From a virus: DNA of 64,000 bases. Within the stretch, counting starts at the first letter, position 1, and each line of letters begins with the position of its first letter. Positions 4,355-60,156 of this stretch are shown in pieces. The translations under genes were made by a program, and so were the position numbers. Below the pieces are notes generated by a model, which saw only the letters and a list, made by a program, of their open reading frames with translations, ran no database searches and was not told where the DNA came from. The stretch is from the IMG/VR virus record IMGVR_UViG_3300043640_000137, positions 1-64,000 of that record, one strand, 5' to 3'.

Positions 4355-4737
4355 CGGCTAGTTTCCTTGGCTGTCTCTGAAAAGAAAACTAGCTTGAAAG
4401 CTACCAGGACTCAAGCGTGGAATCATCGAGTCTCAAAGAAACTGACTCAATTGTAGCTTTCCTAGACTGTCAAAGACAGAGAGGGCAAACGCCGCGCCTG
4501 TCTCGCCGAATTTCTATTACTGTCTTTTCCTGACAACAGGGGAAAAGCCTTTAAAAGGTTTCTGAAACCCCTGAAAGGGAAAAGGCAAAGAATACAAGGG
4601 CATAGACAGGCAATAGGCTGATTTCCGGCTGACGGGGGCGGTAAAAAGCCTTTCAGGGGTTTTGAATGGCTGACAAACCCGGAAACGGGGTTTTATGTCT
4701 TTGATTCTGTTAACGAATCCCTTTTCGGGGTTTTGTA

Positions 4738-4798
4738 TATCCTATAGAAGGATTAAGACCGTTTTTTAGCAAACGGCCTAATCCCTTCTATAGTGGAT
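4738..4798. repeat. long inverted repeat (hairpin/cruciform)
   Basis: The arms run from CTATAGAAGG at 4742 through CCGTTT, and return as AAACGGCC to CTTCTATAG ending at 4793, with about 22 paired bases per arm, few mismatches and a loop of about six bases. ATCC/GGAT may extend it outward. It lies outside genes. An initiation site, a bidirectional terminator or a protein-binding cruciform would fit. Confidence 0.6.
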
Positions 4799-5003
4799 CG
4801 TTTAAAAGGGACGATGGCGGATGAAAGTGACGGGGCGAGGGCAGAGAGTGCCTAGCCGGGTTTCTAGGGCTTCTGCGACCCTGCCGGCGCCGATCCTAGG
4901 GGAATAGGGCTTAGGGCGCGATTGCCCGGCTTTCTGTCACTCGGAACTCTGCCGGCTCCGCCAGCTTCCTACCAGCCCCTTACCGATCCTCCGCCAGGGA
5001 GGC

Positions 5004-5304
5004 GCCCAGCACTGAAGCCGTTAACCATGTTGCCCTAGCAGAAAGCGACACGCGCGGCGTGGCCTCTGACGCCCTTGGTTTAAATCTTCACCATGATCGC
5101 CCAGCACTGAAGCCGTTAACCATGTTGCCCTAGCAGAAAACGACAAGCGCGGCGCATGCCCGGCCTTCGATGGTTTCAATCTTCACCATCGTTGCCCAGC
5201 ACCAAAGCCGTTAACCATGTTGGCCTAGGAGAAAACGACAACGCCGCCGCGCACCCGCCGCGCACCCCGCCGCGCATGGTTTAAATCTTAACCATGATTG
5301 CAGC
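5004..5304. repeat. three tandem repeats of about 95 bp
   Basis: GCCCAGCAC blocks begin at 5004, 5099 and 5194, exactly 95 bases apart. Each continues through GCCGTTAACCATGTT and CGACA and ends in a 20-bp dyad (5075, 5170, 5276; the last unit is about 11 bases longer). The middle of each unit diverges while the two motifs are kept. This architecture is typical of iteron or centromere-like sites, which is inference. Confidence 0.65.
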
Positions 5305-5879
5305 GCTTTGCTCGCGCGCGCTCGTCATGGCCTTGCCTGCCGGGCTGGCATGCTTTCGATTTTAACCATGACCCGGCACATCGCCGACGCTGGCGTCATG
5401 CCAAGCAATCCTTGCCTTGGAATGCTATGGTTAAGACTCTAATCATTCATGCCTTGCGATGCGACGTGCGAGCGCGCGGTCCGATGGTGAAGATTTTAAC
5501 CATAGCATGACGGGCATGGCTTGCGCTCGCATCGCTTCACCTTGCGCGCGGCAGGCATCGATCGCGTTAACCTTAACATCTTCACCATGCCGTGCTGCGC
5601 TCGCGCGTCGCGCTTCGTTAACCTTAATGCCTTAACCTTAATGCGTCGTTCACCTTAATGCGTTGTTAAGGTTAATGGCCCGTTAACCTTAACAAGTTAA
5701 CCATGTTATCGTTAATACCCCCCGTTAACCCTTTTCAAAAGCAGGGGGCACGTCGAACTCCCCAACGCTAGAGCCGTTTAAGTTTTGGTATGACCCTGGA
5801 CATAGACGGAAATAGACAGCCGAGGAAGGATTGCATGAATTTTCAATGGGGCGGCCGGCATGGTTAAAATCTTCACCAT
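5075..5879. repeat. dispersed 20-bp dyad, six copies
   Basis: The consensus ATGGTTAAAATCTTCACCAT is an imperfect palindrome. Copies are at 5075-5094, 5170-5189, 5276-5295, 5427-5446 (degenerate), 5484-5503 (reverse orientation) and 5860-5879. The last two are exact reverse complements of each other although they are 376 bases apart. Further half-sites lie at about 5357 and 5567-5588. Confidence 0.65.
5567..5735. repeat. cluster of TTAACC/GGTTAA words
   Basis: At least eight TTAACC or GGTTAA words occur in about 170 bases (for example TTAACCTTAATGCCTTAACC at 5619). TTAACC resembles one half of the CtrA site known in alphaproteobacteria, but the canonical TTAA-N7-TTAA spacing was not found, so the link is weak. 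Confidence 0.45.
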
Positions 5880-6226
5880 GGAGTTCCTGCTCAGAAATTT
5901 GGTTTGAAAATTTTTTGGATCGCCGCGCCGCGGATCGAGCTTCAAGCCCAGGCACGCACAAGAGCACATTGGCTTCTTCGTGCTACCGATCCAGCGGATA
6001 TGACGCACACGTAAGCCATCGACGACCTCGGTACTGCCGAGACCGTGGTCGGAATCCCGGCCGCGAGCACAGCGTCGGTACTGCCGACACCGCGGCAATC
6101 CGGTCCCCGCCGCCAGACTCGGACGCCGCGTGGCGTCTTGACAGCAGGGGAAAAATTTTCGCGCGACGAACGCGACACGCGAGAGGGTCCATACTAGGCT
6201 GGGCTTTGCGTCAGTAGGAGAGCAGC

Positions 6227-9561: not shown

Positions 9562-9882
9562 TCAGTGATGACGATCGGCGAGCGAGAAATCGACGGTCTC
9601 TTTCACGGGCGGAGGCTCAAGAGCCTTTTTGAACTCCTCGACCATGATTCCGATCTGCTGCTTGAGGGCAGCCTCGATATGTTCGACGTCATCCATAGAC
9701 CAGTCGTACGCGCCGCGCGCGAGATTGCCGATCAAGCGGATGCCATCGAGCGCGCTAAGGGTGCGCCCGTTACCAATGCGCAAAAACGCTTGACGTCGGG
9801 TTTCGTTCGGCGGAGGCGGCTTGCGACCGCGCTTTCCCTTTGCGGGAGTGGGATTAGAGGCTTTGGCCTTTCGTGCTGACAT
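9562..9882 (-). CDS. small DNA-binding candidate with AT-hook-like motif
   Basis: 106 residues from ATG 9882, which has AAGGAG nine bases upstream, the best binding site nearby. An in-frame extension to 10047 has no such support. The motif KGKRGRKPPPP at about residue 16 resembles an AT-hook; the remainder is helical (MDDVEHIEAALKQQ). It is the only minus-strand gene in the rightward block, so it may be a regulator transcribed separately. Confidence 0.6.
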   Translation of the reverse strand: MSARKAKASNPTPAKGKRGRKPPPPNETRRQAFLRIGNGRTLSALDGIRLIGNLARGAYDWSMDDVEHIEAALKQQIGIMVEEFKKALEPPPVKETVDFSLADRHH

Positions 9883-10187
9883 ATGTGCTTGCTCCTTCAT
9901 CTCAGACCGTTGTTGAACAGCTACTTCCATTTGGACGACCTCATTATTAAAACCGTCCTCATCCATATAAACCAAGGACGGAAAAGACACAAGGGGAAAC
10001 ATTGTGTCATATTCGTGGATTTTCATGCCCTTTTTAATTGAAAGCACCTTCTACATTCGTTAGTGTTTACTCCTGCGCGAAAAAGAATGACAAGGCTCGT
10101 ATAAAGCCGAGAGCTAAGGACAAGGCTGTTAAAAAAAAAGCCGAGAGCTACAGACGAGGCTAATGGGTGTTAAAGGAGACCTTTTTT
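9883..10187. other. intergenic region with short direct repeats
   Basis: Contains the divergent start regions of the 106- and 113-residue genes. Near 10090 and 10120 the words ACAAGGCT ... AAAGCCGAGAGCTA are repeated about 30 bases apart, the second with a run of A, and a shorter GACGAGGCTAA follows. Each unit can form a GGCT/AGCC stem. No gene is seen. Confidence 0.45.
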
Positions 10188-44361: not shown

Positions 44362-44586
44362 TTACCGCCGGCCCCGATTGGTCGCGGCTTCACGGCGCTT
44401 GATCTCGGCGAACATCTCGTCGCATTTCAAATTGCCGTGCTTCGTGACGAAGTGGCTGAGCTTCATGCGGCCGTCGATCCGGCGCACCTGATCCCGGCTG
44501 CTGGTCAGGACGGTCAGCCGGTCGAACTCGGCAAGCTCGGACTCGGTGTACGAGATCATCTCTACGGTTCTCTGCTCGGCCATCAT
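44362..44586 (-). CDS. small protein downstream of integrase
   Basis: 74 residues; ATG overlaps the integrase stop (ATGA). Helical and charged (SYTESELAEFDRLTVLTSSRDQVRRIDGRMKL). Position suggests a recombination accessory factor, but no domain is visible. Confidence 0.5.
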   Translation of the reverse strand: MMAEQRTVEMISYTESELAEFDRLTVLTSSRDQVRRIDGRMKLSHFVTKHGNLKCDEMFAEIKRREAATNRGRR

Positions 44587-45755
44587 CGTTGCTCCATCGC
44601 TTTGAGGACGCGTTCGTTCCGGCCGGGCGCGAGATGTCCGTATGTCCGCTCGACCATCTCTCCGCTCATGTCGATAAACTGACCGACGTCGGCGTAGGGC
44701 AAGCCCCGCTGTACGAGCCACGAGGCGCAGGAGTGACGGAGCGTGTGCGGCGTCGCCAGTCGGAGCTTGCGGGCAGACTCGATCCACTGGTCTCGGTCCA
44801 TTGGTGACGTGGCCTTGGCAGCAGCCTTGTCGGCGATCTTCGTGGCCTCTTCACACGCGGTCCTGAATGAGCGCTTCAGGTTCTTCATCGTCGAGCCTTC
44901 ATATTCGAGCACATACGAAGTCGTCCGCTTGCGCAGATACCGGAGCAGGGTGAGGAGGCGCCGCGGAATCTCAGCCCGGCCTTTCCGCTTCTTGCTCTCG
45001 ACTGCGCGCCGACCTTGGAAGTCGATGCGACAGCCCGGTAGATCGACGTGACCGGCGATAGGGTTCGCCTGCCATTGCAGCTTCAGGATCGCTTGCTTGC
45101 GACGGCCCATGTAGAAGCCGATGAGGATGAAGTACGGCAGATGAGCTTTCGCCTTCTTCTGCCGGCGGGCAGCGACGACCAGCGTCGCGATCTCGGTGCG
45201 ATCGAGCCAGATGTCTTTCGACGGTGACTTAGGTGGTAGCTCGACCGGAACCGACTGTGTGAGCTTGCCTTCCGCGACGCAGTAGTTGATCGCAGCGATG
45301 AGTGTGCCGAGTTCCTTGCGTGCGGTGCCGGCTGCCATGCCTGCGTCCACGCGAGACTTCACATACGCGCGGCATGTCCTCGGTGTGATGGCAGAGAGGT
45401 ACTGGTCCGTCCACCACAACACGAGCGCGGTGATGCAGTACGCGATGCGACCAGGGTCTTCGACGGTAGGCGCATGCTCTTCGCCGTAGACGGCAAGAAC
45501 GTCAGCGATCGTTACCTGATCGGGACGACGAGCCCCGTTCCATTTGAGCGCTCGGCTGTTGAGGAAGTCGCCGAGTTCGCCTTCAGCCTTCGCGCGATGC
45601 TCAAAGCTCGCGCCTGTGCTCCGCTCGTGTGGCCGCCTGCGTTCGGACCAGACGATGTACCAAATGTACTGGGTGAAGCCTTTGCGCGGCTTGGCTCCGT
45701 GCTTGGTGTCGGGTCCGAAGAGGATGAGTCGAGGGCCGGGGTTTGGCCGCGGCAT
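44583..45755 (-). CDS. int: tyrosine recombinase integrase
   Basis: 390 residues. N-terminal arm-binding part (MPRPNPGPRL ... YIVWSERRRPHERSTGASF), core-binding helices (about 85-170), and catalytic domain with Arg in GRRKQAILKL (about 214), HTLRH (about 337-341) and the nucleophile Tyr in TYGHLAP (about 372). Integration into a tRNA gene fits the adjacent attP. The ATG lies 11 bases after AGGAG inside the excisionase-like gene. Confidence 0.9.
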   Translation of the reverse strand: MPRPNPGPRLILFGPDTKHGAKPRKGFTQYIWYIVWSERRRPHERSTGASFEHRAKAEGELGDFLNSRALKWNGARRPDQVTIADVLAVYGEEHAPTVEDPGRIAYCITALVLWWTDQYLSAITPRTCRAYVKSRVDAGMAAGTARKELGTLIAAINYCVAEGKLTQSVPVELPPKSPSKDIWLDRTEIATLVVAARRQKKAKAHLPYFILIGFYMGRRKQAILKLQWQANPIAGHVDLPGCRIDFQGRRAVESKKRKGRAEIPRRLLTLLRYLRKRTTSYVLEYEGSTMKNLKRSFRTACEEATKIADKAAAKATSPMDRDQWIESARKLRLATPHTLRHSCASWLVQRGLPYADVGQFIDMSGEMVERTYGHLAPGRNERVLKAMEQR

Positions 45756-59589: not shown

Positions 59590-59909
59590 GGGTACGCGCC
59601 CGATGACATGTTTTCGGCGACGGATCGCACGCGGCTCGGATAGTCCTCTTCCTTCAAGTTGAACCCGGTGCCGGCTCTCAGCGAGGCGGTGTCAACCAAG
59701 TCCATGTTGAAGTGATCGACTTCGAGCGAGTCCATCGCGTCGAGCAGATCGTGGCAGAGCTTGTCATAGAACTCATCCGAGACAAGTGACTCGTTCAGGT
59801 GATAGTAGGCGTAGCTCGTGACCAGATACCAAGGCACGAGCATCGACGGCCCGTAGTTGAGCACGGCGACCTCGCACAGGCTCTCGATCTTCTCGCGGTC
59901 AATCGCCAT
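59586..59909 (-). CDS. hypothetical protein with ligase-like N-terminal pattern
   Basis: 107 residues. LVTSYAYYHLNESLVSDEFYDKLCHDLL resembles the Y-x-YY-x-x-SDxxYD segment of domain Ia of NAD-dependent DNA ligases, here as a small stand-alone protein. Whether this is homology is unsure. Coupled to polymerase and the next gene by overlaps. Confidence 0.45.
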   Translation of the reverse strand: MAIDREKIESLCEVAVLNYGPSMLVPWYLVTSYAYYHLNESLVSDEFYDKLCHDLLDAMDSLEVDHFNMDLVDTASLRAGTGFNLKEEDYPSRVRSVAENMSSGAYP

Positions 59910-60156
59910 GACGCAGCGCCTTGATCGCTTTGCTCACGCCTGCGAGAGCCTTTGCGCGGCGTCGAGCGGCCGTGCGTCGCCGGTCCTCGCGAACACTCAT
60001 CTCAATGTGTCGGGATCGAAGGCGGAACCGGAGCGTGTGGACCTTCGTGCAGTCGCAGCAGCAAAAGCGGAACCCCTTGCGTGATGGCTGAAGCCAATAG
60101 CCCTCGGGCTTCTCCACGCCGTCTACGAACACCACGTACTGCTTTTTACGTGCCAT
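59899..60156 (-). CDS. small basic protein with Cys cluster
   Basis: 85 residues. KGFRFCCCDCTKVHTLRFRLRSRHIEMSVRED looks like a zinc-binding beta unit; the C-terminus is Arg/Ala-rich and helical (RRRTAARRRAKALAGVSKAI). Nucleic-acid binding is plausible. Confidence 0.55.
   Translation of the reverse strand: MARKKQYVVFVDGVEKPEGYWLQPSRKGFRFCCCDCTKVHTLRFRLRSRHIEMSVREDRRRTAARRRAKALAGVSKAIKALRHGD

Follow-up and report, generated by a model that had tools for sequence, protein, structure and literature searches.

What is the function of the 1.9-kb stretch that separates the two divergent halves of this phage genome? The window analyzed here comprises bases 1-64,000 of an 88,524-base IMG/VR virus record, a metagenomic contig. 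A preliminary description had pointed to a repeat-rich, gene-free region between divergent transcription units and had read it as the layout of an origin, a centromere-like partition site or an immunity region. The region is there and its motifs appear to be under selection, but these three layouts miss what is probably its main identity. Its CtrA-type words suggest a CtrA-responsive control region through which phage gene expression, or possibly replication, would follow the cell cycle of the host.

Genome map and the gene-free gap

Gene calling left 1,872 bp without a gene (Table 1). The next-largest intergenic gap is 434 bp, so this is the sole large intergenic region of the genome. No ORF of at least 25 aa within the gap has convincing coding potential, and a hidden gene similar to DELTA_120 was rejected for this reason. 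Coding strands diverge at the gap, with genes up to 4354 on the minus strand and those from 6227 on the plus strand. Rightward genes span 6,227-43,429, and all remaining called genes are leftward save two small exceptions (9562-9966 and 59908-60084). The leftward arm carries the replication genes and the rightward arm the structural genes.

The first and last 121 bases of the record (1-121 and 88404-88524) overlap with one mismatch. The map is therefore very probably circular and complete at about 88.4 kb, though the record is classed as linear. The head and packaging genes are those of a YuA-like siphophage, with terminase, portal and capsid in order; identity to the YuA-like phages of Pseudomonas and Bordetella is about 50% for terL, 53% for the portal and 66% for the capsid. 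The phage also encodes a solitary N6/N4 DNA methylase (PF01555; 55724-56497) whose resemblance to CcrM is partial, with a score far under the cut-off for that enzyme. GANTC shows moderate depletion (259 observed vs 366 expected).

Table 1. Features of the gap. Positions are those of the window.
Feature	Positions	Strand	Basis
Gene-free divergent control region	4355-6226		about four times the next-largest gap; ORFs inside lack convincing coding potential
Long imperfect hairpin, 23-bp arms, 6-base loop	4742-4793		DNA fold, z = -5.1
95-bp unit 1, conserved core with GTTAACCATG	5004-5050	+	repeat comparison
Dyad copy 1, TTGGTTTAAATCTTCACCAT	5075-5094	+	up to 4 mismatches to consensus
95-bp unit 2, conserved core with GTTAACCATG	5099-5145	+	98% to unit 1
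Dyad copy 2	5170-5189	+	up to 4 mismatches to consensus
Unit 3 core with GTTAACCATG, full unit 106 bp	5194-5240	+	89% to unit 1
Dyad copy 3, contains TTAACCAT	5276-5295	+	up to 4 mismatches to consensus
Dyad copy 4, contains TTAACCAT	5350-5369	+	up to 4 mismatches to consensus
Dyad copy 5, degenerate, contains TTAACCAT	5427-5446	-	up to 4 mismatches to consensus
Dyad copy 6, exact reverse complement of copy 8	5484-5503	-	sequence comparison
Five TTAACCTTAA words (5567, 5618, 5632, 5666 reversed, 5683)	5567-5692		word search
Dyad copy 7, right half only, fused to TTAACCTTAA word	5569-5588	+	up to 4 mismatches
Full CtrA-type site TTAA-N7-TTAA	5655-5669	+	pattern search
Full CtrA-type site TTAA-N7-TTAA(C)	5672-5686	+	pattern search
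Stand-alone TTAACCAT half-site	5697-5704	+	word search
Dyad copy 8, exact reverse complement of copy 6	5860-5879	+	sequence comparison

CtrA-type words are concentrated in the gap

The most enriched 8-mer of the gap, found de novo and without any prior, was TTAACCAT. The word matches the half-site of CtrA, a response regulator that governs the cell cycle in Alphaproteobacteria; the full CtrA site is TTAA-N7-TTAAC (PMC3692519; PMC6180460). Nine of the 12 copies in the genome lie inside the gap, while shuffling predicts 0.38 for the entire 64-kb window. TTAACC, which had been described as dense, occurs 15 times in the gap compared to 0.87 expected from an even spread, and two exact TTAA-N7-TTAA sites with the canonical full-site geometry begin at 5655 and 5672.

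Five of the nine TTAACCAT copies in the gap are dyad halves, and so are not independent, and three are tandem copies. Counts were therefore repeated with the dyads cut out and the units collapsed. In this reduced gap, TTAACC (7 vs 0.73 expected), GTTAAC (6 vs 0.27) and TTAACCTTAA (4 vs 0.0) each exceeded all 1,000 shuffles, and the two TTAA-N7-TTAA sites were matched by one shuffle in 1,000.

We used normalized positional entropy to further describe the clustering. Values were 0.45 for TTAACCAT (random 0.96, minimum 0.81), 0.65 for TTAA-N7-TTAAC with one mismatch (random 0.94, minimum 0.80) and 0.71 for TTAACCAT with one mismatch (random above 0.9). These fall below 0.75, the published cut for a low-entropy class of CtrA-site-rich alphaproteobacterial phages (PMC9437464), a cut set with a different matrix from the consensus words used here. 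One-mismatch TTAA-N7-TTAA, the TTAACCTTAA-only reading, gave 0.82 and lies above the cut. In that class the sites occupy an intergenic gap or terminal repeat; here, they occupy the 1,872-bp divergent gap and an array at 85.27 kb. The class is also defined by a CtrA-encoding alphaproteobacterial host, typically entered by pili or flagella. Together with the Brevundimonas relatives discussed below, the array points to such a host for this phage.

The array at 85.27 kb is small, lies outside the window (at about 85268-85340 of the record) and is upstream of the leftward gene 84717-85070. It comprises five TTAAGGTTAACG-like words with alternating spacers and includes TTAA-N7-TTAA twice (85270 and 85303 of the record). 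Three GATTCGGTGGAACC-type repeats precede it at about 85092-85200.

Other words and repeats in the gap

CtrA-type words are nearly absent from the half of the gap that includes 4540-4735, a segment left of the long hairpin with repeated CCTTTNNGGGGTTTT-like words and short hairpins. At the left edge, five AGACAG/CTGTCT words and one CTGTC-AAA-GACAG palindrome fall within 240 bp (4371-4610); it is possible that they form a separate operator for the leftward arm. Near-identical copies of TGACARCAGGGGAAAA, possibly promoter-like, occur in the same orientation towards both gap edges (4528-4546 and 6136-6154).

The long hairpin of the preliminary description was recovered by DNA folding (Table 1). 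The description of three units exactly 95 bases apart proved accurate for the 47-bp cores but not for the full third unit, which has an 11-bp expansion of its GC-rich middle. The claim that motifs are kept while the middle diverges also stands: identity between units 1 and 2 falls from 98% in the core to 58% in the middle and is 79% for the dyad segment.

A 20-bp dyad is restricted to the gap

The dyad had been reported in six copies, two of them exact reverse complements. The dyad and the reverse-complement pair are real, and the number rises to eight when up to four mismatches to the consensus ATGGTKAARATYTTMACCAT are allowed. No copy was found elsewhere in the 88.5 kb, and dinucleotide shuffles gave a mean of 0.0025 and at most one; the count of eight is somewhat generous, as the consensus was built from the counted copies themselves. 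Information per column is 1.58 bits in the dyads compared to 0.57 and 0.48 in the flanks. Conservation is thus limited to the 20 bases, and this holds with the tandem copies left out.

The dyad is probably a second type of site in the region; its ligand would be either CtrA, through inverted half-sites, or a different protein of the host or phage. We place slightly short of an even chance on the dyads being operators of such another protein, which would form a mixed switch by acting with CtrA or competing against it. This is a refinement of the CtrA reading and not its opposite. The strongest dyad half, ATCTTMACCAT, reaches past the CtrA word, and five of eight copies contain TTCACCAT, in which TTCA disrupts the TTAA core. 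The copies at 5075 and 5170 lack any TTAACC. Furthermore, the halves are inverted around a 4-bp spacer, whereas CtrA full sites are direct and spaced by 7. On the other hand, ACCAT is common to the dyad and the CtrA words, and the two often overlap.

A search of related phages, suggested in the preliminary description, did not find the dyad at up to three mismatches in any of seven phage records compared, five of which have CtrA arrays. Within the full set of records compared, only this phage carries the dyad. Nine matches to the half form AT.TT[AC]ACCAT lie in this gap, and the other gaps compared have between zero and two. A small helix-turn-helix protein of 112 aa, encoded at 70314-70652 of the record, is, by type only, a candidate binder. 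There is no dyad upstream of its gene, and so no sign of autoregulation.

Two further explanations of the dyad were rejected. For the XRE motif of Caulobacter and phiCbK, no HTH_3 above the cut-off was found in this phage. For a general viral enrichment of inverted TTAACCAT pairs at N4, the 20-bp match length was absent among the loci listed. No IMG/VR relatives of two gap-flanking proteins were found through which to trace the history of the dyad, and the relative closest by capsid (L257, 89%) ends before the gap.

A model for CtrA-responsive control

No CtrA-like winged helix and no CtrA or GcrA homologue was found among the phage products, so the ligand would be the host's. Host CtrA would bind the TTAACCAT half-sites, GTTAACCTTAA words and TTAA-N7-TTAA full sites between the two arms. 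When phosphorylated CtrA is plentiful, in swarmer or late predivisional cells, the gap would be bound and the outward promoters either repressed or activated. Phage development would then be timed to the host cell cycle, a behavior termed 'lytic deferment'. CtrA binding at this gap, a regulatory sign and a set of controlled genes are what we infer from the sequence; as both repression and activation are known in other phages, the sign cannot be read from it. The weakest link is the target: consensus searches found no promoters or terminators above chance, and the array is at least 348 bp from the nearest start codon, that of the first rightward gene. This weak link leaves room for an effect on replication instead.

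With eight private inverted 20-bp operators next to the CtrA array, the region could also be a two-input switch that combines the cell cycle with a phage or second host signal. We offer this tentatively and consider it less likely than not.

Origin, immunity and partition

It is possible, but rather unlikely, that the gap is (or is also) a replication origin, perhaps gated by CtrA. The Caulobacter chromosomal origin is bound by CtrA and has multiple CtrA sites in one non-coding region. The gap shares this arrangement and, as the sole large non-coding region, has a long hairpin, an AT-rich stretch at 4.7 kb and iterated words. It differs from the Caulobacter origin in that no exact copy of the DnaA box TTATCCACA was found anywhere in the 88.5 kb. 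GC skew, which had been proposed as a check, gave a mixed answer. The cumulative minimum is near 3.6 kb, close to the gap and in favor of an origin reading, but the skew is weak and confounded with gene strand, and its maximum (68 kb) is off a simple half-way terminus. In addition, over 20 kb of the circular map separates the gap from the primase and helicase genes.

An immunity region of a temperate phage, with the dyads as repressor operators, is improbable. The phage does encode a tyrosine recombinase (44583-45755; phrog_1, E=2e-30), and operator-like words are repeated between divergent arms. However, neither gap edge has a repressor-like gene: the first rightward gene encodes an acetyltransferase (GNAT), the left edge has small unknown genes, and no helix-turn-helix match was found in the flanking genes scanned. 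The recombinase lies at the far end of the leftward arm (44.6-45.8 kb), and while the phage may be temperate, the gene may instead serve another purpose.

A centromere-like partition site is very improbable: the dyads are iterated and the first four have near-integral helical spacing (95, 106 and 74 bp), but the remaining iterated words are CtrA words, and no ParA- or ParB-like protein was seen among the proteins covered by the general scan. Least probable of all is a host repeat family or unrelated insertion acquired by the phage, since, although IMG/VR contains nothing that matches the 95-bp unit, the dyad matches listed from IMG/VR and GTDB bacterial genomes are chance-like (one per contig, in unrelated phyla) and relatives have a gap of different sequence at the corresponding place.

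Relationship to phages with CtrA arrays

Gaps and terminal repeats rich in CtrA sites were described in alphaproteobacterial phages by Mascolo et al. 2022 (PMC9437464), who proposed that such arrays originated repeatedly. CtrA binding was demonstrated for Delta, phiCbK and Cp1R7A-A1, with repression in Delta (gel shift and reporter) and activation in phiCbK and Cp1R7A-A1 (PMC9437464). The phage studied here has the CtrA words, their extreme clustering and their position, and the same words stand at the equivalent place in CtrA-bound phages. Among 50,697 phage records, the only DNA matches of the gap were GTTAACC arrays, in terminal repeats of three phiCbK-like Caulobacter phages. Word counts showed that TTAACCAT, TTAACCTTAA and GTTAAC are common to this gap, Delta, Fanboy, BabaJaga, MMDA13 and the RBC63 terminal repeat. 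GTTAACC is wholly absent from YuA and CN1, the relatives on Pseudomonas and Bordetella.

Uncultured relatives found via the capsid protein extend this pattern. As in this phage, two of them have arrays that lie 13-15 kb upstream of the capsid gene: G008, with 10 TTAACCAT in 472 bp, and G001, in which 1 kb holds about 20 GTTAAC. Against the CtrA reading, several closer relatives with long contigs (G002 and G004) have none. On the capsid tree the array requires at least four changes, in keeping with the repeated origin proposed by Mascolo et al. 2022, with the caveat that many contigs are fragments, so that missing data may account for part of the absences. In the G001 gap, iterated GTTGCCCGGGCATC-like palindromes occupy the left side (L407 5300-5560), and nothing like them was found in the window.

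The closest counterparts are the Brevundimonas phages Delta, Fanboy and BabaJaga. They share with this phage the YuA-like head genes, an 86-88 kb circular map, divergent arms and a 1.2-1.9 kb gap full of TTAACCAT, TTAACCTTAA and GTTAAC, with about 30 TTAA words, yet capsid identity is only 53-56%. By the same count, TTAA-N7-TTAA occurs twice here and six times in Delta, which has a small ORF adjoining its sites and lacks both the 20-bp dyad and the 95-bp units. Sphingomonas phage vB_StuS_MMDA13 (MN820898) also has a gap between opposite arms (1,186 bp, with GTTAACCAT direct repeats and GTTAACCTTAA), but it belongs to a different phage group and has fewer sites and no dyad. In the phiCbK-like Caulobacter phages (e.g. 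RBC63, PV231352), the GTTAACC array matches the gap at 77% over 78 bp; these are jumbo phages with the array in long terminal repeats and, again, no dyad.

The small set of phages thought to take their developmental timing from host CtrA gains an independent, sequence-diverged case, along with two further uncultured relatives that carry such arrays (G001 and G008). The dyad raises the question of whether CtrA can act through half-sites in inverted orientation, or a second signal is integrated by these phages. Compared with the known systems, the gap would be a further instance of a type of control region described only recently, with an unexplained operator-like dyad in addition.
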